Source of the DNA: Desulfuromonadaceae bacterium
GTDB taxonomy: Bacteria > Desulfobacterota > Desulfuromonadia > Geobacterales > Pseudopelobacteraceae
Assembly: GCA_028681335.1 (NCBI GenBank)
Contig: JAQUIT010000008.1
Coordinates: 1 to 64,000, forward strand
Direction of reading: 5' to 3'
DNA length: 64,000 nucleotides
Shown here: positions 31,535 to 43,889 of the stretch, in pieces
How the letters are laid out: the number at the start of each line of letters is the position of its first letter
Position numbering within the stretch: position 1 is the first letter of the stretch
Translations under genes and position numbers: made by a program
The notes under the pieces: model-generated
What the model was told of the DNA's origin: nothing
What the model saw: only the letters and a program-made list of their open reading frames with translations
Databases searched by the model: none

Positions 31535-32296
31535 TTATTCCTTGATCCGCCCCACCAGGCGCAGCAACCCGTCCAGAATTGTCAACGGGCTGGGGGGACA
31601 ACCGGGAATGTACAGGTCCACCGGCAGAAGAGCGTCAGCGCCGTTATGAACCTCGGCGTGATCCTTGAACGGCCCGCCGTTAATGGCACAGGCACCGGCG
31701 ACGATGACCAGTTTAGGCTCCGGAATGGCCGCATAGGTGTCCAGCAGTGCCAGGCGCATATTTTCAGACACCGGGCCGGTGACAAACAGACCGTCGGCGT
31801 GTCGCGGGCTGGCAACGAACTGGATGCCGAAACGCCCAAGATCCCAGCCGATGGTGGAGAGCACGTTGGTATCCGCCTCGCACGCATTGCAGCCGCCGGC
31901 ACTTACCTCGCGCAGCTTGAGCGAACGTCCGAAAAGGCGGAGCAGCTCACCTTCCAGTGAATCCGCCGGATCATACAACTCTCCGGCTGTTACTGTCAAC
32001 CCGCTGCGGCTGCGACTGGAAAGACGGGCATCGCTTGAAAACGTGAGCGCATCATGGGGGCAGGCGGCGGCGCAATCGCCGCAGAACAGACACTTCCCCA
32101 TATCGATCACCAGAGGACCGGAAGCGGAAATCGCACCGTACGGGCAGGCGGCGGCGCAAGCCCGGCAATCGTCACGACAGCGCGAAGCGTCCAGGACCGG
32201 CAGACCACGAAAACGGGGCGGCAGCGGCAGCGGTGCATCGGGGTACTTGAAGGTGCGATGCCCCTGACGGAAACGGGTCATAATTGCTTTTAACAT
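31535..32296 (-). CDS. hyfI: Hyf/Ehr small subunit: ferredoxin domain fused to NuoB/HycG-type subunit
   Basis: 253 residues. N-terminal two-cluster ferredoxin-like domain (about 35-95: CRDDCRACAAACP and CLFCGDCAAACP), then a NuoB/HycG-type domain with proximal-cluster ligands CNAC, VAGACAING and IPGCPPSP. In most Hyf/Hyc complexes the ferredoxin (HycF/HyfH) and small subunit (HycG/HyfI) are separate genes; here they are one. Hydrophilic arm of the membrane complex, with hyfG as partner. Confidence 0.88.
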   Translation of the reverse strand: MLKAIMTRFRQGHRTFKYPDAPLPLPPRFRGLPVLDASRCRDDCRACAAACPYGAISASGPLVIDMGKCLFCGDCAAACPHDALTFSSDARLSSRSRSGLTVTAGELYDPADSLEGELLRLFGRSLKLREVSAGGCNACEADTNVLSTIGWDLGRFGIQFVASPRHADGLFVTGPVSENMRLALLDTYAAIPEPKLVIVAGACAINGGPFKDHAEVHNGADALLPVDLYIPGCPPSPLTILDGLLRLVGRIKE

Positions 32297-32321: not shown

Positions 32322-33095
32322 TTACTGAATCAGGTAAGCTCTTTTCAAACGCCGAACGAGCGTAACCACGTCGTCAATAGCAGGGACGATTGCCATTACT
32401 ATCAAAAGTACCGCAAGCGGCACGGTAGAAAGATAGCCGATGTGCTTGAATCCAAAAGCACCGGTCACACCACCCACAAAGAAAAAAAACACCATCAGAA
32501 TAAACAACTTGAGACGATCTCTATTTGCCACTATTCGGGGTTGATCCGGAAATTTTCCGGAATTACAGTAGAATAACTTACCTAACTCAATACCAATATC
32601 CGTAACGATGCCGGTTATATGTGTTGTCCTGATTTCTGCATTGGATAATTTGGTAATAACCGCATTTTGCAATCCCATAATGAAGCACAGAAGCACTACG
32701 GTAAGAGGGACGAATAGTGCATCAACCACGGAAAGACGGGCACCAAGAATACCAAAACAAATCAGCAGCAGCGCCTCCAACAGCAGGGGAAACGCATATT
32801 TACAGTGCATATGCCGTCGCCGGGCGTAATTGACCATCACAGCTGTGCTGGTAGCGCCGGCGATAAACGACAACAATCCCCCGACACCAACAAACACCAA
32901 GTCGAATTTAACAAGCGCCAAATTGTCAGCCATGGCTGACACTATGCCGGTCATGTGCGAGGTGTACTGTTTAACAGCCAGGAAACCACCGGCGTTTATA
33001 GCGCCAGCCACAAAAATCAAAGCGATGCCAAGCTGATTGTTAGCTTTGGTAGTGCGTTTATTCCCCGTAAGGCTTCTTACATATTTGATTAGCAT
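32322..33095 (-). CDS. DUF1275 (YoaK-like) membrane protein
   Basis: 257 residues, about six membrane helices. Family marks: GAINAGGFLAVKQYTSHMTG at the N-terminus and GLQNAVITKLSNAEIRTTHITG in the middle. Function of DUF1275 is unknown. It is inserted between hyfG and hyfI of the membrane-complex operon, with a 125-base gap in front, and is visibly AT-richer than its neighbours (many AAA, ATT codons), which suggests a later arrival. Confidence 0.85.
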   Translation of the reverse strand: MLIKYVRSLTGNKRTTKANNQLGIALIFVAGAINAGGFLAVKQYTSHMTGIVSAMADNLALVKFDLVFVGVGGLLSFIAGATSTAVMVNYARRRHMHCKYAFPLLLEALLLICFGILGARLSVVDALFVPLTVVLLCFIMGLQNAVITKLSNAEIRTTHITGIVTDIGIELGKLFYCNSGKFPDQPRIVANRDRLKLFILMVFFFFVGGVTGAFGFKHIGYLSTVPLAVLLIVMAIVPAIDDVVTLVRRLKRAYLIQ

Positions 33096-33220: not shown

Positions 33221-34744
33221 TTACAGATCAAAACCGCAGTACGACAGGTTGAAACTCTTGTTGCAGAGCGGGAAGTCGGAAATCTGCTGATTACGCAGCG
33301 CAAGACCCAGGCCGTTCCAGTTGTGGAACGAAGGGTCGACGATCTTGTAGCGTTCAAAACGCCCCTGAGCGTCAGTCAGGGCAACATGACATATCTCGCC
33401 ACGCCACCCCTCGGTTAAGGAAACCGCACAGCGATCAGGCGCAATACTTTTCGTCGGGTTGCGATAACCGCCGCCGCGCGGCAGATGGCGGACCTGTTCA
33501 GCGATAAAATCCAGTGAGCGCTCGGCCTCCAGCCAGCGGAGCAGCGTGCGGGCGGCGACGTCGCAGGTCGTCGCGGTAACAACCGGTATCTGGCTCATGC
33601 GGAATATGCCGAATGGATGGTCGCGCCGCACATCGCGGTTCAGACCGCACGCACGAGCGGCAGGACCGACCATGCCGATCTCGCGGGCATCCACCTTCGT
33701 AACGGTGCCGGTCTCTTCCAGGCGTGCCATAACCGAGGGGGTATCCCAGAGCAGCTGTACGGCTCCGGTAAGATCTTTCCGCGCAGCCTGGAGTTTTGTG
33801 TACAGCTCATCAGCAATGGCGGCGTCGCAATCATAGCCGATCCCGCCAGGTCTGAGCAGACCACGACCGAAACGGCTGCCGCATAGCAGGGCGGTCATGT
33901 TGAGGAAATCGCCCCTTATCCGCCCGCAGAATGAAGATGTCGGCAGGTACCCGACATCACCGGCAATGGCACCCAGATCCCCGGTATGGTTGGCCAGTCG
34001 CTCCAATTCAAGAGCTATACCGCGCACCGTTTCGGCTCGCGGCGGCGCGAAGACACCACCCAGCGTCTCCATGTTCATGCAGTAGGCCTGGCCATGCCCG
34101 ATCGTCGTATCACCGGCTATCGTTTCCATCTGATGCATGGTGCGCGGCGCCGGCCCGCCGATCAGTGCCCGTTCGATGCCGCGATGCTGAAACCCGTGCG
34201 CTATTTCCAGATGAAAGACTTCCTCGCCATGGCACTGAAAACGAAAATGCCCCGGCTCGATGATACCGGCGTGTACCGGACCGACCGCAACCTCATGTAC
34301 CTCATCACCCTCAACGCGGTAAAAATCCATCACGCCCGGGAGCAGGCCGCCGCCGTCACTATCGCTCCAGAAACCTTCTCCGGCGCAGAGAGGTTTTTGA
34401 AAGCGTACCGGCTTGAACCATGGATGCCCTTCCGGCCGCACCAGGCACTGTTCGGCGATCTCCCGTTCAAACAGATGCAGCTGCGGACAGGCGGCCGCCA
34501 GTGAGGGGAAGGAACGTCCGACGGATGTAGAGGATATTCCAAGGGTGCCGTTCCCGTCACGGGCGGACATGATGCAGTACAGCGTCGCCCCGGCGGCATG
34601 CGGAATCCCGAAATAGGAGCAGACCCGCCAACCGGCAGAGATCGCATCCAGCAGTGCCTGAAAGAAGGTGTCGTTATCATGCGACGGGATCTCGCCACGG
34701 TCGAACGAGGTGCCGTTATAAAAAGTTTTCATGCCGTAACTCAT
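33221..34744 (-). CDS. hyfG: HycE/HyfG-type large subunit without nickel ligands (Ehr-like)
   Basis: 507 residues: N-terminal NuoC-like domain (about 1-150) and NuoD/HycE-like domain (HLEIAHGFQHRGIERAL onward). The nickel ligands are missing. Where a hydrogenase has R-x-C-G-x-C the protein reads METIAGDTTIGHGQAYC, and the C-terminus ends CNKSFNLSYCGFDL instead of D-P-C-x-x-C. So it cannot carry a [NiFe] centre; this matches energy-converting-hydrogenase-related (Ehr) complexes. Overlaps hyfF by four bases. Confidence 0.9.
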   Translation of the reverse strand: MSYGMKTFYNGTSFDRGEIPSHDNDTFFQALLDAISAGWRVCSYFGIPHAAGATLYCIMSARDGNGTLGISSTSVGRSFPSLAAACPQLHLFEREIAEQCLVRPEGHPWFKPVRFQKPLCAGEGFWSDSDGGGLLPGVMDFYRVEGDEVHEVAVGPVHAGIIEPGHFRFQCHGEEVFHLEIAHGFQHRGIERALIGGPAPRTMHQMETIAGDTTIGHGQAYCMNMETLGGVFAPPRAETVRGIALELERLANHTGDLGAIAGDVGYLPTSSFCGRIRGDFLNMTALLCGSRFGRGLLRPGGIGYDCDAAIADELYTKLQAARKDLTGAVQLLWDTPSVMARLEETGTVTKVDAREIGMVGPAARACGLNRDVRRDHPFGIFRMSQIPVVTATTCDVAARTLLRWLEAERSLDFIAEQVRHLPRGGGYRNPTKSIAPDRCAVSLTEGWRGEICHVALTDAQGRFERYKIVDPSFHNWNGLGLALRNQQISDFPLCNKSFNLSYCGFDL

Positions 34745-36174
34745 TGAGGCACCTCCAAAAGAGCCGCCGCATCACGCAACAGCGTCATCAATGGTTCCGG
34801 TATCCATACCCCGAGTAAAAACATCAGCAAAAGCAGGGCCAGTGGCGGTCCAACCGTCCAGAAGGTATCCCGGTATGCGGTCTTTTCACTGTCAGCGGGA
34901 ACCTCCCCCATGACCATCGGCAGAACCGTCAGCGCCATGCCGATAAAAATAACCGTCAACGAAAGCAGGAAAATGGCTCCTACCAGCATCTGCCCCTGCA
35001 TGAAGGCGCTGCTGATTATGGTAAACTCGCTGATAAAAGGTGCAAATGGCGGTGAACCGGTGATGGCGATAAAGCCGGCCAGGAAGATCCCGCCCGACCA
35101 GGGGAGGCGGCGCAGGACGCCCCGCACTTGATCGGTTCTCTTGCTGTTGTAGGAGCGGTGGATATTGCCTGAAGAGAGGAACAGCACCCCCTTGGTCAGG
35201 CCGTTGGCGAGAATGTGGAACAGCGCGCCGAAGATCGCCTTGCCTCCTAATCCGAGCGCTACCGCCATGATGCCGACATGCTCAACACTGGAGTACGCCA
35301 GCATCCGCTTGAAATCCGCCTGTCGCGCCATAAATACCGCGGCCATAACCATCGAAAACAGCCCCATGACGATCAGGGCATTCTGAAAAAAGACGATCTC
35401 TTTGGTGGCCAGACAGAGTTGGTACACGCGCAACAGGGCAAGGAAAGCCAGATTAACCAACCCGCCGGAGAGCAGAGCGCCAACAAGTCCCGGTGCTTCG
35501 CCGTACGCGTCAGGTTTCCAGGTATGGAGGGGAGCCAGCCCCATCTTTGTACCGAAACCGACCAGCAGAAAGACAAAGGCCGCATGAACCCAGCCGGAGG
35601 AGAGTTTTCCCGCATCCCGGATAAGGTCATCGAGGAGCAGTGACGGCTCAACCCTGGCGACAATCGTGGCGTAGGCGAGAAAATAGAGGCCGATCAGCGC
35701 CAGGGCGACCCCGACCGAGCAGATCAGCAGGTACTTCCAGGTCGCCTCGATGGAGCGGGCGTTGCGGTTGAAGTAGATCAGCGGCGCCATGGAGATGGTC
35801 GTGGTTTCAAGCGCCACCCACATCAGTCCCAGATGGTGAGTGATGGTAACCAGCGAGGCGGCCGACAGGCAGACCAGCAGCCACATGCAGAGCGCACGGT
35901 TGGAACGCTCCTGACGATAGAAAAGGTAGCCGATCGAGTAAAGGGCACAGACCAGGAAGAGAGTGCTGGTGCTCAACAGGACGATTTTCCCCAGTGCATC
36001 CAGGTGAAACCAGCCACCGGGAGATTCGGGCGGGGTGACGATCAGCAGCCGGAGCGTGATACCAAAATGGGCAAGAGAGAAGAGTGACAACACCTTGGGG
36101 CGGAGGCGGTCAAACGGAATCAGCCAGCAGGTAGCGGCTCCGATAAGCGGAAGTATGATCAGGGCAGCAAGCAT
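34741..36174 (-). CDS. hyfF: Membrane antiporter-like subunit HyfF (NuoM/N type)
   Basis: 477 residues, about 14 helices, one of the Mrp-like ion-translocating subunits of the complex. Seen: the key Glu in LMWVALETTTISMAPLIY, a Lys in GFGTKMGLAPLHTW (mid-membrane channel), and a second Lys in ILANGLTKGVLF. It begins four bases behind hyfE and overlaps hyfG. Confidence 0.93.
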   Translation of the reverse strand: MLAALIILPLIGAATCWLIPFDRLRPKVLSLFSLAHFGITLRLLIVTPPESPGGWFHLDALGKIVLLSTSTLFLVCALYSIGYLFYRQERSNRALCMWLLVCLSAASLVTITHHLGLMWVALETTTISMAPLIYFNRNARSIEATWKYLLICSVGVALALIGLYFLAYATIVARVEPSLLLDDLIRDAGKLSSGWVHAAFVFLLVGFGTKMGLAPLHTWKPDAYGEAPGLVGALLSGGLVNLAFLALLRVYQLCLATKEIVFFQNALIVMGLFSMVMAAVFMARQADFKRMLAYSSVEHVGIMAVALGLGGKAIFGALFHILANGLTKGVLFLSSGNIHRSYNSKRTDQVRGVLRRLPWSGGIFLAGFIAITGSPPFAPFISEFTIISSAFMQGQMLVGAIFLLSLTVIFIGMALTVLPMVMGEVPADSEKTAYRDTFWTVGPPLALLLLMFLLGVWIPEPLMTLLRDAAALLEVPQ

Positions 36175-36178
36175 GGAA

Positions 36179-36820
36179 CTACTCCTCTTTCAGGGAGGTC
36201 AAACGCGAGGTATCCAGCGAGGAAAACTCACGACTGATCTGGTTGATGACAATCCCCATCACGAAGGTGCCGACCAGCAGATCGAGCAGGGCACCGGCTT
36301 CAACCATGATCGGCATCGCCTCCGCCAGCAGCAGGCCGAAGATGAAAATGCCGTTTTCAAGGATGAGGTAGCCGATAACCTGCGAAATCGCCTTGCGGCG
36401 GGTCGTCAGCACCAGAAAACCGCTCATCAGCGTGGCGATGGATGCCGGGACGAACATGTAATTCTGGTGTTCCGGCAGCATCGGCAGCTTGCCGGCAAAA
36501 CCGAACGAAAGCGCCGTAAAAACCGCGCCGAGCAGCAGCGTGGGGACATAGCCGAGAAACGGCTCCACTTCGCGCTTGATCTCGGCGGAACGGACCGCCC
36601 GCACCAGCAGGAGCGGGATAACAAAACCTTTGACCGCAATTATGACGGTCGTAATCCCGACCAGATGCCAGGAGAACGGGTGGATCAGCCCGGGCAGAAT
36701 GCCTAGAATGACCCCCTGTACCGCCACGGCACGAATCGAAAAGATCAGACGGCTGGTGCCGAGCGAGATAAAGTTGATCAGCAGCACCAGCACAAGCAAT
36801 TGGTCGGCAAGAGTAATCAT
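36179..36820 (-). CDS. hyfE: Membrane subunit HyfE
   Basis: 213 residues, six or more helices; the C-terminal part resembles NuoK with charged residues in LILENGIFIFGLLLAEAMP. I use ATG 36820 (AGGTG upstream, 4 bases behind hyfC) instead of the longer frame from 36874, whose extra residues overlap hyfC. Confidence 0.9.
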   Translation of the reverse strand: MITLADQLLVLVLLINFISLGTSRLIFSIRAVAVQGVILGILPGLIHPFSWHLVGITTVIIAVKGFVIPLLLVRAVRSAEIKREVEPFLGYVPTLLLGAVFTALSFGFAGKLPMLPEHQNYMFVPASIATLMSGFLVLTTRRKAISQVIGYLILENGIFIFGLLLAEAMPIMVEAGALLDLLVGTFVMGIVINQISREFSSLDTSRLTSLKEE

Positions 36821-36824
36821 CGCA

Positions 36825-37733
36825 TCACCTGATGACAAGCAGAGTAGAGAACGCCGCCAGTATTGCGGCGGCAACGAGCAACTGGGGAACGCGCACCAGC
36901 CGCAGACGGGCCATGGCCGATTCTACCATACCGATGACGACGGCCAGTTCCAGCATGGAGATAACGAAAAGCCCCCAGTCGATCAAAGAGTTGCCGGTCG
37001 CATAGGGGAGCGCCAGGTGGACAAAAAAGGCACCGAGCACAAACAGTTTGAGTGCAGCGCCATACTGAATGATCGCCAGGGCCGGACCGCTGTGGTCAAG
37101 CACCATTACCTCGTGGATCATGGTCAGTTCAAGGTGGGTATTGGGGTCGTCAAACGGGATACGGCAGTTTTCGGCCAGCAGCACGATGAACATCCCGCAG
37201 ACGAGGAGCAGCAGCGCCGCGCCGGTGTTCAGCCAGACGCCGAAACTGATGTTGATCAGCATCCCGGAGAGAGAATACGAACCGGACAGGCGCGACAGCG
37301 TGATCAGCGCAAAGAAGAGCGTCGGTTCGGCCAGGCAGGAGAAGGTCGCCTCGCGGGCCGACCCCATTCCCTCGAAACTGGAACCGGTATCCAGTGCGGC
37401 TGCCATCGTAAAGAAACGCCCCAGCGCGAACAGATAGGCGTACAGGATCATGTCGCCGTCAAAGGAGATCGGCGACTGGTGCGCGCCAAACGGAATCAGC
37501 AGCGCGGCGACCGCAGTCGTAGCCAGGGCGACGATCGGCCCGGCACGAAAAACCCAGCTGGTGGTCGTGCTGAAGACGCTCCCCTTGCGCAGCAGGCGGA
37601 TGATGTCGTAGTAGGGCTGCAGGAACGGCGCGCCGACTCTCCCGGCAAACGCCGCCTTCGTTTTACCGATTACCCCCAGCAGCAGCGGCGGCATCGTGAG
37701 CGCCAGCAGGATATGAATGATACTGTTTGTCAT
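36825..37733 (-). CDS. hyfC: Membrane subunit HyfC/HycD (NuoH-like)
   Basis: 302 residues, about eight helices. Anchors the hydrophilic arm; NuoH-type cytoplasmic loop with acidic residues is seen: ENCRIPFDDPNTHLELTM and IHEVMVLDHSGP. Start chosen at ATG 37733 with GGGAAC upstream; an in-frame ATG at 37745 is possible. Next to hyfB and hyfE in the expected Hyf order. Confidence 0.93.
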   Translation of the reverse strand: MTNSIIHILLALTMPPLLLGVIGKTKAAFAGRVGAPFLQPYYDIIRLLRKGSVFSTTTSWVFRAGPIVALATTAVAALLIPFGAHQSPISFDGDMILYAYLFALGRFFTMAAALDTGSSFEGMGSAREATFSCLAEPTLFFALITLSRLSGSYSLSGMLINISFGVWLNTGAALLLLVCGMFIVLLAENCRIPFDDPNTHLELTMIHEVMVLDHSGPALAIIQYGAALKLFVLGAFFVHLALPYATGNSLIDWGLFVISMLELAVVIGMVESAMARLRLVRVPQLLVAAAILAAFSTLLVIR

Positions 37734-37754
37734 GGCAGTTCCCATAAGGATCTT

Positions 37755-39752
37755 TTAGTGTGCCCAAAGCATCAGAATAAACAGGGTGGCAAAGATATAC
37801 ATCATATACAGATGAATCAGGCCGTACTGCAGACGGCGCAAAAAAGCGGACCACGCTCCGACCAGCATGAACAGCGGCACAATGACCCTGTCCAGAAGAG
37901 TTTCGGTCGGGACGTCGCTGCAGCGGGCAGACCGTGGAAAAAGGCCGCCCAAAGTAGGACGATCTATTTTCTGGCGCACCATACCATTGAAGACAGCAAC
38001 GACAAACTCGGAAAAAGAGGTCGCACCATACTGGACCCTCGCCGTGCCGCGCTGGTAACCGCACCCCCAGGTTGGCGCAGTCGCCACCCTCCCCCGTCCC
38101 AGACGCCACCTCCAGAGCAGTGTCACGAGGACCACTGCCGTCAGCAGCAGGATACCGGCAAGCGAAAGCCTGCCCAGAACGGAATCATACCCGGCCGGGA
38201 TTTCAGCTACAAAAGGTTGCGGATAAAACGCCGCAATAGCCGGTGAAACCAGACGCATGGCCAACTGCGGGGCTACCCCGATCAGCAGGCAGAGCAGCGC
38301 TAAAAAAGCCATCGGCAGCAGCATCGGCCACCCGGCTTCATGCGGATGCGCCGCTGCCTGGCTGCGCGGAGTACCGAGGAAGACAGAGCCGTACAGCTTA
38401 GTAAAGGCGATCAGTGCCAGTCCGCCGACAAGCGCCAGCACCGGAGCCAGCAACACCAGATAGACCAGGCTGTCGGCCTTGAGTTGACTAAAGAAACCGA
38501 GGTAGAGAAGGAATTCGCTGACAAAGCCGTTCAGAGGGGGAATGCCGCAGATGGCAACCGAACCGATCAGGAAGAGGAGGGCCACGCGGGGCATACCTTT
38601 TCCCAGCCCCCCCATCAGGTTCATCTCACGCGTTCCGGCGGCATGAATAATGGCCCCGGAGCCGAGGAAGAGCAGCGGTTTGAAGAAACTGTGGTTGAGA
38701 ATATGGAGCAGGGCGCCCGCCATGCCGAGATACATCAGCGTGGGGTTGTGGCTTGACACCCCCATCATGGCAACTCCGAGGCCGGTGGTGATGATGCCGA
38801 TATTCTCGATGCTGCTGCAGGCCAGCAGGCGTTTCAGGTCCCGCTGGGCGACCGCGAAAGTTATCCCCAGCAGCGCCGAGGCTATGCCGCACACCGTCAG
38901 AACCACCCCCCAGAGCAGCGGCGGCTCGTAAAAAAAGGTCAGGGAGCGGAAGATTCCGTACAGCCCCATCTTCAGAATGACACCCGACATCAGCGCGGAA
39001 ACGTGGCTGGGTGCGTTGGCGTGAGCCGAAGGGAGCCAAAGATGAAACGGCATGATACCGGCCTTGGCGCCGAAGCCGACAAAAGCCGCCAGCGCCATGA
39101 TCGCGGCATAGGGAGAGAGCGCTGAAAGCGAACCGACCGGAGGGAGCAGGAACGATCCGGTTTGGGCCGCCAGCAGCGAGAAGTAGACAAACAGAACCAA
39201 TGTGCCGGTATGGGTTGCGATCAGGTAGACGATTCCGGCGCGCCGGACGTTCTCCCGTTCATGTTCGACAACAATCAGAAAGTAGGCGGAAAGCGCCATA
39301 ACTTCCCACACCATGAGAAAAAAAACGCCGTTACGAGCCATGAGCAGAATCGCCATTGACGAGGCGAGCAGGCCGTAGAAAAAGGTCAGTCCCCGTTCGG
39401 TAGCGCGATGCTCGGCAGCCGGCCAGTAGCCGACCGCAAAGAGAGAACCGGCGGCGGCGACGATAAAGACCGGCAGCAGAAAAAACGCGGAAAGCGGGTC
39501 GATGACAAGTTCGCAGGGGCCGAACGGCAGGCTCCACTGGAGCAGATAGGTGGTGGTTGTGTGGCTGAAGAGGAGCTGCAGGGAGGCCGGAACGCCGGCC
39601 ATGGCGGCAAGAATAGTCGCTGCCGTTGATAAAATCTGGCCGGGGCCCGGTTTTCGAAGGAACAGACCGGGGATGCCGGCACAGCCGATAACAAGCGCGG
39701 CGACCAGCGCCACGAGCGCAGGGTCAAAGTAACCCTGCAGAGCGGAATGCAT
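37755..39752 (-). CDS. hyfB: Large antiporter-like membrane subunit HyfB (first copy, NuoL-like)
   Basis: 665 residues, about 16 helices. Seen: VWEVMALSAYFLIVVEHE (helix 5 Glu), GFGAKAGIMPFHLWLPSAHANAPSHVSAL, LLACSSIENIGI, LNHSFFKPLLFLGSG (Lys channel) and the HyfB-type C-terminal TWGCGYQRGTARVQYGATSF. ATG 39752 has AAGGAG upstream. Very similar in layout to the second copy 1.3 kb away; the carbonic-anhydrase-like gene lies between them. Confidence 0.93.
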   Translation of the reverse strand: MHSALQGYFDPALVALVAALVIGCAGIPGLFLRKPGPGQILSTAATILAAMAGVPASLQLLFSHTTTTYLLQWSLPFGPCELVIDPLSAFFLLPVFIVAAAGSLFAVGYWPAAEHRATERGLTFFYGLLASSMAILLMARNGVFFLMVWEVMALSAYFLIVVEHERENVRRAGIVYLIATHTGTLVLFVYFSLLAAQTGSFLLPPVGSLSALSPYAAIMALAAFVGFGAKAGIMPFHLWLPSAHANAPSHVSALMSGVILKMGLYGIFRSLTFFYEPPLLWGVVLTVCGIASALLGITFAVAQRDLKRLLACSSIENIGIITTGLGVAMMGVSSHNPTLMYLGMAGALLHILNHSFFKPLLFLGSGAIIHAAGTREMNLMGGLGKGMPRVALLFLIGSVAICGIPPLNGFVSEFLLYLGFFSQLKADSLVYLVLLAPVLALVGGLALIAFTKLYGSVFLGTPRSQAAAHPHEAGWPMLLPMAFLALLCLLIGVAPQLAMRLVSPAIAAFYPQPFVAEIPAGYDSVLGRLSLAGILLLTAVVLVTLLWRWRLGRGRVATAPTWGCGYQRGTARVQYGATSFSEFVVAVFNGMVRQKIDRPTLGGLFPRSARCSDVPTETLLDRVIVPLFMLVGAWSAFLRRLQYGLIHLYMMYIFATLFILMLWAH

Positions 39753-39925
39753 ACAAAGAGCTCCTTGAAACAATTCAGACCGGATTTAGAAAGAGACCGC
39801 TTGCAACACTTTCAGCGGGGTAAGATAGTGAACCCCGAGACGTATACGTGTCAATAAAAAACTGTCACGATTACAGGCTATTCAGCAGCCGGGGAGTCGT
39901 TTTTCGGATTTTAGCGGGAGTCGCG

Positions 39926-41017
39926 TCACCCAGTTTGGCAGCTCATTCCATCCGGCTCGGGCAGCGCCTCTATCCGGCGCGAATTCCAGTCCAGCACCGA
40001 GGTCCGACGGATCATCTTCACGGCCAGATCTGGAAACTCGCGTTCTATCACTTCGGCAGCAAATTTGGCCAGAAATTGCGATTTCATAACGGCACGTGCC
40101 CGGTCAACCCCAATTTCATCATACGGCACCGAAGCGAGCAGCAGAAAGCCGTCGTCTGGAATCCTCCCGGCGGCCATATTGCTTTCAATAATTGCCGCCG
40201 CCTTGCGGATCGGGTCGGCCAGATCGGGGCTGTACGGCCCGACGATCAGAGCCAGGTTGGGGGTATGGAGAAAATCAAAACCACGCCCCAGGCAGATCAT
40301 CCATTCACGATGTTCGACGGTGAGCGCACGCCGCTCCTGACGTAATGCCTTAATGTGGGAAAGGTTGCCGGCCAGCAGCGGCAGGAGGTCGTTCCTCATT
40401 TCCTGGGGCATGTCATGAAAGCGGGGCGCCAGTTCTGCGGCAAGCCCTTCCGCTGTCATGCCAGCGGACAGATCCAGTATATGCCCGTCGGGGCTGTGCA
40501 GCAGCAGGGCATCTTCATCGGTTTCAAAACCACAGATAAGGGGATAGACGCTGTCATGGGCGGCACCGAAGATCGCTTCCATCTGGCTGCGGATCTGGTG
40601 GGTATGGGCAATTGCCGCCACCGTATCACAGCCAAAGCCGGAACAGCCCCGATGAGCATCGCCGCGTGAAAAATGGTAGGTTATCAGGAGCAGGACCCGG
40701 CGGCCGTTTTTCACCATACGCTGGACATACTGGGCCAGCACCTCTCCCAGATGGGGCCATCCCATATCGAATATCCCGCCAAGATTGCGGAATGGCTGAA
40801 TAATGCCGGGGGGCGTATTGGTGGCAACCGGGATGTTGATGCGGCCGTCCATGCATTTCAACACGGCGATGGCGGTCGGATGCAGTGCAAGGTAGCGCTC
40901 TCTGGCGAGAAAAGCCTCCGGAGAGCAAAACTCTGCCGAGTATCGCTGCGCCAGATCGAAAACCCAGTTGATGCGCTTTGCTATCGACTGTTCATGGATA
41001 GTGCAGGCCTGGTTCAT
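39926..41017 (-). CDS. Carbonic-anhydrase-like protein in the Hyf/Ehr operon
   Basis: 363 residues, soluble, no signal peptide. Carries the zinc-site pattern of beta-type carbonic anhydrases: C55-M-D57-G-R59 (the C-x-D-x-R dyad motif), FRNLGGIF (like the RNxG stretch), and after a hydrophobic strand LLLIT the segment Y-H115-F-S-R-G-D-A-H122-R-G-C125-S-G-F-G-C130. H122-x2-C125 fits ordinary beta enzymes; H115-x14-C130 fits the spacing I recall for DabA (UPF0753). Closest well-known relatives may be CsoSCA-type. AAGGAGGGGG precedes the ATG, 27 bases behind hyfB copy 2. Activity is inferred, not shown. Confidence 0.75.
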   Translation of the reverse strand: MNQACTIHEQSIAKRINWVFDLAQRYSAEFCSPEAFLARERYLALHPTAIAVLKCMDGRINIPVATNTPPGIIQPFRNLGGIFDMGWPHLGEVLAQYVQRMVKNGRRVLLLITYHFSRGDAHRGCSGFGCDTVAAIAHTHQIRSQMEAIFGAAHDSVYPLICGFETDEDALLLHSPDGHILDLSAGMTAEGLAAELAPRFHDMPQEMRNDLLPLLAGNLSHIKALRQERRALTVEHREWMICLGRGFDFLHTPNLALIVGPYSPDLADPIRKAAAIIESNMAAGRIPDDGFLLLASVPYDEIGVDRARAVMKSQFLAKFAAEVIEREFPDLAVKMIRRTSVLDWNSRRIEALPEPDGMSCQTG

Positions 41018-41044
41018 GGCGCCCCCTCCTTCAGCTTCAGGACC

Positions 41045-43057
41045 TCAGAAGTAACTGACTGCCAGCAGGACAACCAGCGTAACAAGAGAATAGAGAACGT
41101 ACTGCTGCAGGATGCCGTTCTGCAGCTTGCGTACTCCGGAAAAGCGGGCATAGAGACGTTTCAGCGCCGGGATATACACGAGCTCCAGCACAGCTTCCGG
41201 AACATGGCTGGAAAAGCGGGAGCGGTCGGGAAAAATCCCCGCCGCTATTTCAGGGGGGTGACTCTGCGGCTTCAGTACAAAGGCAAAGAGGGATGTCAAC
41301 ATGCCGGCGAATGATGAGGCGCTATACTGTATCCGTGGCGCCGGGCGCTGATAACCGCACCCCCAGGTAACGTTCTCGCTACAGACCGTCCCCGCCAACC
41401 GGCGCCTGTACCAGAACGTCACAAGAGATATCAGGGCAAGCAGCAAGGCTCCCGCAATGGTTATCATCTCCAGCGGTGCCAGCTCCTGCAGCGGGAGTCC
41501 CGCCGTCGTGACCAGCAGCGGCAGAACAGTCAGGCTGACCCGCCCCAGCGGGCCGGCCACCAGAGAGGGAGCCAGCCCTATGACAAGACAGATCGAACCC
41601 AGCAGCAGCATCGGCAGCAGCATCGGCCAACCGGCCTCATGGCTCGCCTCATGCCGCTCCGCCCGCGGCGAACCGAGAAAAACGATGCCGTAAACCTTGA
41701 CAAAACAGGCCACCGCCAGCCCCCCGACCAGGGCCAGCGCCGGAGCGGCCAACGCCGCTGCAGCTGCCGCCGCCCCACCCGTGCCCTGAATGCCCTGAAA
41801 AAAACCGAGGTAGATCAGCAGTTCACTGACAAAGCCGTTAAGCGGCGGCAGGCCGCAGATCGCGACCGCGCCGACGCCGAACAGCAGGGCCGTATAGGGG
41901 AGACGCCGTGCCGCCCCGCCCATCAGATCCATTTCACGGGTGCCGGTGGCGTGGATGACCGAACCGGCTCCAAGAAAGAGCAGCGCCTTGAACAGGGCGT
42001 GGTTGAGAACATGCAGCAGCGCTCCGCTCATACCGAGCAGCATCATCGCCGGAGAGCCTGTCGCCTGCCCTACCAGCGCCACGCCGAGTCCCATGAAGAT
42101 AATGCCGATATTCTCGATACTGTGGTAAGCGAGCAACCGTTTCAGATCGTGCTGTCCGATCGCAAAGGCTACGCCGACCACTCCGGAGACGCCCCCGAGG
42201 GCCAGCACGCTGCATCCCCACCAGAGTGGTACAGCGTTAAAGAACGACAGTGTCCTGACGATCCCGTACACCCCGACTTTGAGGATAACACCGGACATAA
42301 CGGCCGAGACATGACTGGGGGCGTTGGCGTGGGCCGAGGGGAGCCAGATATGGAGTGGCATGATGCCGGCCTTCATGCCGAAACCGAACAGGGCGATCAG
42401 ATACACAGCGGCAGCCAGAGGAGAGGAGGCTGTCAGTGAACCGGCTGCCGGGAAGAGCCAGCTGCCGCTCAGCAGGTTCAAGAGCGGAAAGAGGGCAAAC
42501 AGACCGAGGGTCCCGGTGTGGGTGGTAATCATGTAGAGCGTGCCGGCTGCGTTGACCTCGGGTTTTTCGTCCTCGGTGGTTATGAGAAAATAGGATGCCA
42601 GCGCCATTATTTCCCAAGCAAACAGGAAACTAATGCCATCACGGGCCAGGACAACGGCGCTCATGCCGGCGGTCATCACCCCGAAGAAGAAGGTCATCTT
42701 GCGGACGTTATGGGGGTAGTGGCCGGCGTGCCAGTAGGTACGGGCATACAGTGCGGCACAGCCGGTGATCAGAAAGATGGGGATTAGAAACCAGGCCGAA
42801 AGCGGATCGATGCCGATCTCGGCCGGGCCAAACGGGAGTGCCCAGGCGAGTTGAAAAATTTCAGAACTACCGGAGATTAACGCCACGGCAGCGCCGATTA
42901 ATCCAAGGGCGGAAGCCGCCAGCATGAGTACAGTCGCCAGCAGCTGACCACGGGAGACACTCAGCAGTCCGGGCACCAGCAGTGGAGCACCGGAGAGTGC
43001 GGCCAGCAGTGTGGCGGCGAAAATCAGTGTACTAGCGGCTACCAACTCCTGCGCCAT
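41045..43057 (-). CDS. Large antiporter-like membrane subunit HyfB (second copy, NuoL-like)
   Basis: 670 residues, about 16 helices; aligns along its whole length with the other HyfB (AWEIMALASYFLITTEDE, GFGMKAGIMPLHIWLPSAHANAPSHVSAV, LNHALFKALLFLGAGS, TWGCGYQRPAPRIQYSASSF). The duplication gives the locus three Mrp-like subunits including hyfF. It is the promoter-proximal gene of the operon; the 154 bases upstream contain no clear sigma-70 or sigma-54 promoter. Confidence 0.92.
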   Translation of the reverse strand: MAQELVAASTLIFAATLLAALSGAPLLVPGLLSVSRGQLLATVLMLAASALGLIGAAVALISGSSEIFQLAWALPFGPAEIGIDPLSAWFLIPIFLITGCAALYARTYWHAGHYPHNVRKMTFFFGVMTAGMSAVVLARDGISFLFAWEIMALASYFLITTEDEKPEVNAAGTLYMITTHTGTLGLFALFPLLNLLSGSWLFPAAGSLTASSPLAAAVYLIALFGFGMKAGIMPLHIWLPSAHANAPSHVSAVMSGVILKVGVYGIVRTLSFFNAVPLWWGCSVLALGGVSGVVGVAFAIGQHDLKRLLAYHSIENIGIIFMGLGVALVGQATGSPAMMLLGMSGALLHVLNHALFKALLFLGAGSVIHATGTREMDLMGGAARRLPYTALLFGVGAVAICGLPPLNGFVSELLIYLGFFQGIQGTGGAAAAAAALAAPALALVGGLAVACFVKVYGIVFLGSPRAERHEASHEAGWPMLLPMLLLGSICLVIGLAPSLVAGPLGRVSLTVLPLLVTTAGLPLQELAPLEMITIAGALLLALISLVTFWYRRRLAGTVCSENVTWGCGYQRPAPRIQYSASSFAGMLTSLFAFVLKPQSHPPEIAAGIFPDRSRFSSHVPEAVLELVYIPALKRLYARFSGVRKLQNGILQQYVLYSLVTLVVLLAVSYF

Positions 43058-43211: not shown

Positions 43212-43889
43212 TTACTTCCTGATGATGGTTTCCTCCAGCGCGCGAATCGCGACCATGATCTCCCCCTCGCTGCCGGGACGATGGAGCAGTTCCTGAAACG
43301 GTTGATCACGCAGCAGAAATGCCAGCTTTGCCAGCAGATTCAGGTGCGCTTTGACGTTAGGCGTTACCAGCGTAAAAAGAATCGTGACCGGCTGACCGTC
43401 TATCGCATCAAAGTCGATCGGATTTTTGAGAAAGCAGAGGCTTATCGCAGATTCCCCTGCCTGCCCGACGATCGGATTACGAACATGCGGGATTGCAATA
43501 CCGTTCCCGAGGGCGGTGGAGCCGAGGGCCTCGCGTGCCAGAAGGGTCTGCAGCAGAAATTCCGGATCGAGACTCGGGGGAAGCTTGAGGCGCGAAACGA
43601 CCTCCCGTAATGCCGATTCCGGAGTATCGCCCGGCAGATCGTAAAAAATCCCTCCGTGGGCCAGCGCATCGGAAACAAGCGGTCGATCCGGCGTTTCGCC
43701 ACTGGCAGCAAAGATCTCGGGAGGAATCAAAATTCCATGGCTAGTGGCCCATTCCAGCAGATCAACCCGATTGATGCGGTACCGGTCATCCTGCTTATGC
43801 GCCGGGAGCCCCTTGTGTTTAATCCAGCCTAATACTGTTTTTTCATCAACGCCGATGGCGGCGGCAAGATCGGTAACCTTTAAAAACAT
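43212..43889 (-). CDS. Excisionase-type HTH domain fused to PTS EIIA (EIIANtr-like)
   Basis: 225 residues. N-terminal MerR/excisionase-like helix-turn-helix (about 1-50: VTDLAAAIGVDEKTVLGWIK) fused to a PTS EIIA-2/nitrogen-type domain (about 75-225) with phospho-His135 in GNGIAIPHVRNP. Members couple PTS phosphorylation to regulation and not to sugar import. No PTS permease is nearby. It lies upstream of the hyfB copy 2 on the same strand, so it may be co-transcribed with or regulate that operon (inference). Ribosome site GGAGAG. Confidence 0.88.
   Translation of the reverse strand: MFLKVTDLAAAIGVDEKTVLGWIKHKGLPAHKQDDRYRINRVDLLEWATSHGILIPPEIFAASGETPDRPLVSDALAHGGIFYDLPGDTPESALREVVSRLKLPPSLDPEFLLQTLLAREALGSTALGNGIAIPHVRNPIVGQAGESAISLCFLKNPIDFDAIDGQPVTILFTLVTPNVKAHLNLLAKLAFLLRDQPFQELLHRPGSEGEIMVAIRALEETIIRK

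Follow-up and report, generated by a model that had tools for sequence, protein, structure and literature searches.

The 64,000-nucleotide stretch analysed here (positions 1 to 64,000 of contig JAQUIT010000008.1, assembly GCA_028681335.1, from a Desulfuromonadaceae bacterium; hereafter the window) carries a gene for a carbonic anhydrase (CA) of the CsoSCA2 type directly behind the gene for HyfB2, a NuoL-like subunit of an Ehr complex with a dead hydrogenase site. The sequence evidence inclines us, somewhat, to regard this protein as a competent soluble cytoplasmic CA that works together with the Ehr ion pump as its functional partner. A preliminary description of the window had placed a 363-residue open reading frame between two HyfB-type genes, and this arrangement is confirmed:

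41045-43057, minus strand: HyfB2 (EhrA-type, NuoL-like, 670 amino acids), with a Proton_antipo_M domain and hydrogenase 4 subunit B as its best NCBIfam match
39926-41017, minus strand: CsoSCA2-type carbonic anhydrase (363 amino acids), assigned by Pfam, NCBIfam and PDB matches, fold and invariant site residues
37755-39773, minus strand: HyfB1 (EhrA-type), assigned by Pfam and NCBIfam; relatives suggest a true start near 39752

The CA reading frame starts 27 bp behind HyfB2 and ends 152 bp ahead of the annotated HyfB1 start; HyfB2 and HyfB1 are 48% identical.

The 363-residue protein is a CsoSCA-type carbonic anhydrase, with homology beyond chance. It scores 33.9 bits against Pfam CsoSCA_cat (PF20686; cut-off 21.5, E 2.9e-8) and 39.6 bits against NCBIfam TIGR02701 (E 2.9e-10), where it misses the equivalog cut-off of 241, and a PDB search returned CsoSCA (E 1e-5). 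CsoSCA is also the best fold match of its AlphaFold model (Z 24-26 across 326-339 residues; mean predicted local distance difference test score 79, low around residues 81-89 and 233-263), scoring well above ordinary beta-CAs. The structure prediction that had been proposed as a check on the CA assignment thus yielded the CsoSCA fold with a complete CA site. The first CA strand begins at residue 48, and the protein has no hydrophobic or transmembrane segment (maximum Kyte-Doolittle value 1.08). Neither Pro_CA (PF00484) nor the DabA domain (PF10070) was matched in it by Pfam, and the missing Pro_CA match rules out a canonical beta-CA. A carboxysomal CsoSCA is ruled out by the missed equivalog cut-off and by the single CsoSCA_cat match in the genome, at 39926-41017, in a search that covered CsoSCA_cat and no other carboxysome gene. 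Two PF00484 genes are present in the genome, both away from the Ehr locus. Judged by its short N-terminus and complete active site, the protein fits the description of CsoSCA2 (variant 2), the non-carboxysomal CsoSCA homologues named in 2022 and characterized there as widespread and unstudied (PMC9164163).

The active-site codons were located by alignment with CsoSCA, by comparison with the ligands of HnCsoSCA and by invariance in an alignment of 40 homologues:

40643-40855, minus strand: zinc ligand and dyad codons, comprising C55 (40853-40855), D57 (40847-40849), R59 (40841-40843), H115 (40673-40675) and C125 (40643-40645), of which C55, H115 and C125 are the zinc ligands and D57 and R59 the dyad
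40310-40312, minus strand: H236, counterpart of the transition-state histidine H397 of CsoSCA (PDB alignment after chain-offset correction)

All six residues are invariant across the 40 homologues, and in the PDB alignment H115, C125 and H236 fall opposite H242, C253 and H397 of HnCsoSCA. From the motif and general knowledge we take C55 to correspond to C173, and D57-R59 to D175-R177, of HnCsoSCA, these residues lying outside the PDB local alignment. The zinc ligands of that enzyme are Cys173, His242 and Cys253 (PMC12646314). The beta-type signature first read from the sequence therefore stands in part: CA homology and C55, D57, R59, H115 and C125 hold, but the type is CsoSCA rather than canonical beta, and H122 and C130 are rejected as ligands, since both vary among the 40 homologues. 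The protein is probably active as a CA, and from the complete, invariant site we predict an ordinary reversible enzyme.

Linkage to HyfB2 was followed through 76 Geobacteraceae genomes, 39 of the genus of the window's organism and 37 others. CsoSCA2 occurs in 13/39 genus genomes and in 0/37 of the others, while HyfC is found in 66/76; wherever the genus has CsoSCA2, HyfB2 lies immediately upstream on the same strand (13/13), and 12 Geobacteraceae-type contigs of a named collection show the same arrangement. All Geobacteraceae CsoSCA2 sequences form one fully supported clade in the tree, which indicates a single acquisition. Unrelated genes inserted between the CA and HyfB1 cause the distance between the two to vary within the genus, with 117 bp and 4.8 kb as the extremes. 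Throughout the genus this gap (39774-39925 in the window), which precedes the HyfB1 promoter, acts as a hotspot for insertions, seen also in L003, L005, L007, L011, L128, L130 and L155; its cargo includes toxin-antitoxin (PemK/PIN), AbiEii-AAA/RloB, DUF4276, Lon-like AAA and T2SSE ATPase genes, and in four genomes the HyfB2-HyfB1 gap is empty (142-179 bp). In some genomes of the genus (L136, L138, L145), HyfB1 is directly preceded by another Ehr-like cluster, a divergent one with 30-50% identity.

Two genomes that lack CsoSCA2 (G038 and G039) carry in the HyfB2 slot, about 20 bp behind HyfB2, a gene for a 204-residue canonical beta-CA (PF00484, E about 1e-51). A FastTree phylogeny places their HyfB2 among the CsoSCA2-bearing HyfB2 sequences, with weak local support. 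Elsewhere in the class of the window's organism, L183 (9354-11129) and L184 hold beta-CA and CsoSCA2 genes in tandem.

Outside Geobacteraceae we examined 68 close homologues, with flanks of at most 10 kb that were often ended by a contig edge. Seven of the 68 have as their neighbours three clustered genes of the NuoL/M/N-like kind; DabA can be seen in five of these seven, and in the other two (L015, L051) the DNA ends first. For two more of the 68 the neighbour is an Ehr cluster with SulP as its last gene. Among 250 genomes sampled from one betaproteobacterial order, 16 contained a strong CsoSCA2 match. Ehr HyfF is present in 8 of these 16, and in seven of the eight CsoSCA2 and Ehr lie within about 10 kb of each other (probability by chance about 5e-15, and 1e-8 once lineages are collapsed). 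Two further genomes (L171, L181) have CsoSCA2 beside DabA clusters; by a Fisher test that ignores kinship, Ehr or DabA is enriched in the CsoSCA2 genomes (14/16 vs 86/234 others, 7.8e-5). In the CsoSCA2 tree, well-supported branches require at least three changes, whether gains or losses, each for Ehr and for Dab linkage. The Dab-linked CsoSCA2 of L046 is sister to the Ehr-linked L169 and L170, as though one pump had been swapped for the other. In L050, L067, L169, L170 and L180, the betaproteobacterial Ehr genes (HyfB-C-E-F-large-small) adjoin a gene for a SulP anion transporter, and these Ehr clusters are convergent with CsoSCA2. SulP was found in 5 of 20 CsoSCA2-less betaproteobacterial Ehr loci as well.

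The link between CA and pump looks functional to us, because HyfB2 linkage is fixed in the genus, a beta-CA occupies the same slot and the association recurs in Betaproteobacteria. The preliminary description had taken linkage of homologues to hyfB as a check on its proposal, and the outcome is divided: all 13 in the genus lie beside HyfB2, but most homologues outside Geobacteraceae do not lie beside hyfB.

The remainder of the Ehr locus and its surroundings comprise the following features:

43212-43889, minus strand: protein with HTH_17 and PTS EIIA domains (PtsN-like; Pfam), head of the PtsN-HyfB2-CA unit
39825-39854, minus strand: sigma70-type promoter-like element upstream of HyfB1, TTGACA..TTCACTAT (conserved pattern)
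36825-37745, minus strand: HyfC (NuoH-like; Pfam NADHdh)
36179-36874, minus strand: HyfE (NuoK-like; Pfam/NCBIfam)
34741-36174, minus strand: HyfF (NuoL/M/N-like; Pfam/NCBIfam)
33221-34744, minus strand: Ehr large subunit with NiFe ligands lost (alignment to the formate hydrogenlyase subunit HycE, 7z0s, and to betaproteobacterial Ehr)
31535-32296, minus strand: Ehr small subunit with ferredoxin domain; the four Cys of an N2-type cluster are present in the sequence

Judged by this group-4-type subunit set without NiFe ligands, the predicted complex is of the Ehr type, as in Geobacter sulfurreducens. The large subunit has AGDT where HycE has CGIC, and its C-terminus (NLSYCGFDL) has lost the C-terminal Cys pair; the dead hydrogenase site that had been claimed is thus borne out. 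The NiFe ligands are likewise absent in the two betaproteobacterial large subunits that were aligned (L050, L169). A DUF1275 membrane protein gene (32322-33095) splits the large and small subunit genes, which are adjacent in the relatives examined.

The neighbourhood probably comprises two transcription units, one of PtsN, HyfB2 and the CA and another running from HyfB1 to the small subunit. The 27-bp gap in the window is too short for a separate promoter, so that the CA is predicted to be transcribed with HyfB2, and the placement of the PtsN-like gene next to HyfB2 is a conserved arrangement. A pattern search found the HyfB1 promoter-like element (TTGACA...TTCACTAT) in 21/24 loci, whether or not the CA was present. 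The single operon first proposed is accordingly doubtful: the PtsN-like gene, HyfB2 and the CA are tightly packed, but HyfB1 stands behind its own conserved promoter-like element. In the window this element reads TTGACACGTATACGTCTCGGGGTTCACTAT, and its hexamers enclose a palindrome, ACGTATACGT, that is a possible operator; a regulatory role of the element is predicted from the sequence.

In the mechanism that we favour, CsoSCA2 is probably made from the transcription unit of HyfB2, which belongs to the NuoL-like ion-channel subunits of Ehr. At the cytoplasmic face, near HyfB2, the CA would hydrate or dehydrate CO2 and so act as a source or sink of H+ and HCO3-. Pumping by Ehr would thereby be coupled to a local proton supply and to bicarbonate or CO2 for carboxylation and pH balance. 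The data establish the fold, the site, the gene linkage, the CA displacement and the recurrence; we infer the enzymatic activity, the ion pumping by Ehr, the physical contact between CA and Ehr and the direction of flux in this scheme. Geobacteraceae oxidise acetate to CO2, and there the CA-Ehr pair would balance pH and supply carboxylases; CsoSCA2 beside SulP or DabA, as in Betaproteobacteria, would serve inorganic-carbon uptake. We also count in favour of an Ehr partnership the rise of Ehr subunits with formate in G. sulfurreducens proteomics (PMC7894505). Several observations weigh against this partnership. Ehr is mostly without CsoSCA2 in Geobacteraceae (CA in 13/76 genomes, HyfC in 66/76), and no more than 5 fixed differences separate Geobacteraceae CsoSCA2 from the others, so that a dedicated docking surface is not in evidence. 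The gap ahead of HyfB1 is a cargo hotspot, and HyfB1 has its own conserved promoter-like element. About 59 of the 68 outside homologues show no NuoL-type cluster in their flanks, which are at most 10 kb and often contig-limited. The betaproteobacterial CA and Ehr genes are convergent, hence not co-transcribed. Finally, two beta-CA queries found no beta-CA in the 20 CsoSCA2-less betaproteobacterial Ehr loci, so that a CA beside Ehr is rejected as a general rule.

The CA might instead be a passenger in the HyfB2-HyfB1 hotspot, expressed from the hyfB2 promoter and unconnected to Ehr. The assorted cargo of the gap in relatives, its emptiness in four of them and the mostly unlinked homologues elsewhere all suit this explanation, and we give it some weight while holding it to be unlikely. 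The CA always directly follows HyfB2 in the same orientation and persists across much of the genus, whereas the other cargo is sporadic; the linkage also recurs in other classes. Chance cargo is hard to defend when the slot is filled by either of two unrelated CA families. That two relatives have an ordinary beta-CA in place of CsoSCA2, together with the invariance of every catalytic residue, makes it very improbable that CA function has been lost and that the protein, though of CsoSCA fold, now serves Ehr as a structural or sensory subunit, for instance in bicarbonate sensing. Such a role would accord with the PtsN-like regulator at the head of the HyfB2-CA unit, and inactive CA-related proteins are known (PMC6609565).

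A further alternative, close to that of the preliminary description, is vectorial: CsoSCA2 would dock on HyfB2, and either ion flux through HyfB2 or Ehr electron transfer would drive one-way CO2 hydration, as in DAB systems. The HyfB2-CA tandem does resemble a pair of NuoL-like and CA-like proteins, members of the CsoSCA2 family adjoin true clusters of DabA and a NuoL-like gene, and the niche is open, in that DabA was found neither in the window's genome nor in any of the 76 Geobacteraceae genomes (0/76). Yet CsoSCA2 keeps its catalytic His and has no transmembrane helix, while DabA is without this residue and brings a membrane helix of its own; a CA without gating would run backwards; and closely similar CsoSCA2 homologues stand alone. 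We consider this alternative improbable, and the energy-driven hydration originally suggested is not supported. An ordinary reversible CA serving Ehr is likelier than energy-driven vectorial hydration, because H236 is kept and no transmembrane helix is present, unlike in DabA. It is a doubtful, more far-reaching idea that HyfB2-CsoSCA2 and Ehr form a third kind of energy-coupled system for inorganic carbon, next to DAB and the NDH-1MS of cyanobacteria. In it, a complex-I-like pump that is driven by redox reactions and has a dead hydrogenase site would act on CO2/bicarbonate by way of an associated CA, in Geobacteraceae and, with SulP, in Betaproteobacteria.

If CsoSCA2 and Ehr cooperate, both gain a function: by the respective papers, neither Ehr, whose role is stated as never investigated (PMC7894505), nor the CsoSCA2 enzymes (PMC9164163) have been functionally studied. 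Complex-I-like pumps would then have been paired with CAs repeatedly, with differing CA families and differing pumps, and the pairing offers a testable reason for the commonness of a carboxysome-type CA in bacteria without carboxysomes. The novelty claimed at the outset would lie in the association and not in its parts. The CsoSCA2 family (PMC9164163), Ehr, DAB and SulP are already known, as is a beta-CA adjoining a hyf cluster in Acidithiobacillus caldus (PMC3826726). The open-licence literature searched yielded no report of CsoSCA2 with Ehr, HyfB or SulP, an absence that is weak evidence, and none that describes one CA replacing another behind HyfB2 or Ehr and DabA alternating beside CsoSCA2.

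Among known systems, the CsoSCA2 proteins share with the protein described here a short N-terminus, the CsoSCA fold, a full active site and a wide distribution in Proteobacteria; in the accessible part of their description, csoSCA2 is mostly lone or Rubisco-linked, and Ehr/HyfB, DabA and SulP neighbours are unmentioned (PMC9164163). Carboxysomal CsoSCA (epsilon/beta-class; PDB 2FGY, 8THM, 9G4T) has equivalent catalytic and C-terminal domains, zinc ligands, dyad and His397. It differs in being only 18-21% identical and in an N-terminal domain of about 144 residues, whose N-terminus binds Rubisco and which the window's protein lacks; no carboxysome locus was found alongside the latter, on the strength of the single CsoSCA_cat match. 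The DAB/Mps system for dissolved inorganic carbon uptake (DabA-DabB) likewise pairs a CA-fold protein with a NuoL-like one. DAB2, however, reportedly has a buried site without Gln/His, shows no spontaneous CO2 hydration and uses the DabA transmembrane helix (PMC13144422), whereas the protein here is not PF10070, has a complete CA site and no transmembrane helix, and has an Ehr HyfB as its partner. The Ehr cluster of G. sulfurreducens (GSU0739-45) has in common the NuoL-like EhrA, the HyfE-like EhrC and the large and small subunits, and differs in that no CA is mentioned for it in the accessible text (PMC7894505). In A. caldus, a CA gene also lies directly beside a hyf cluster (hyfBCEFG), there as a beta-CA rather than CsoSCA2 and in a single genomic island, and a role in pH/CO2 homeostasis was proposed for that arrangement in 2013 (PMC3826726).

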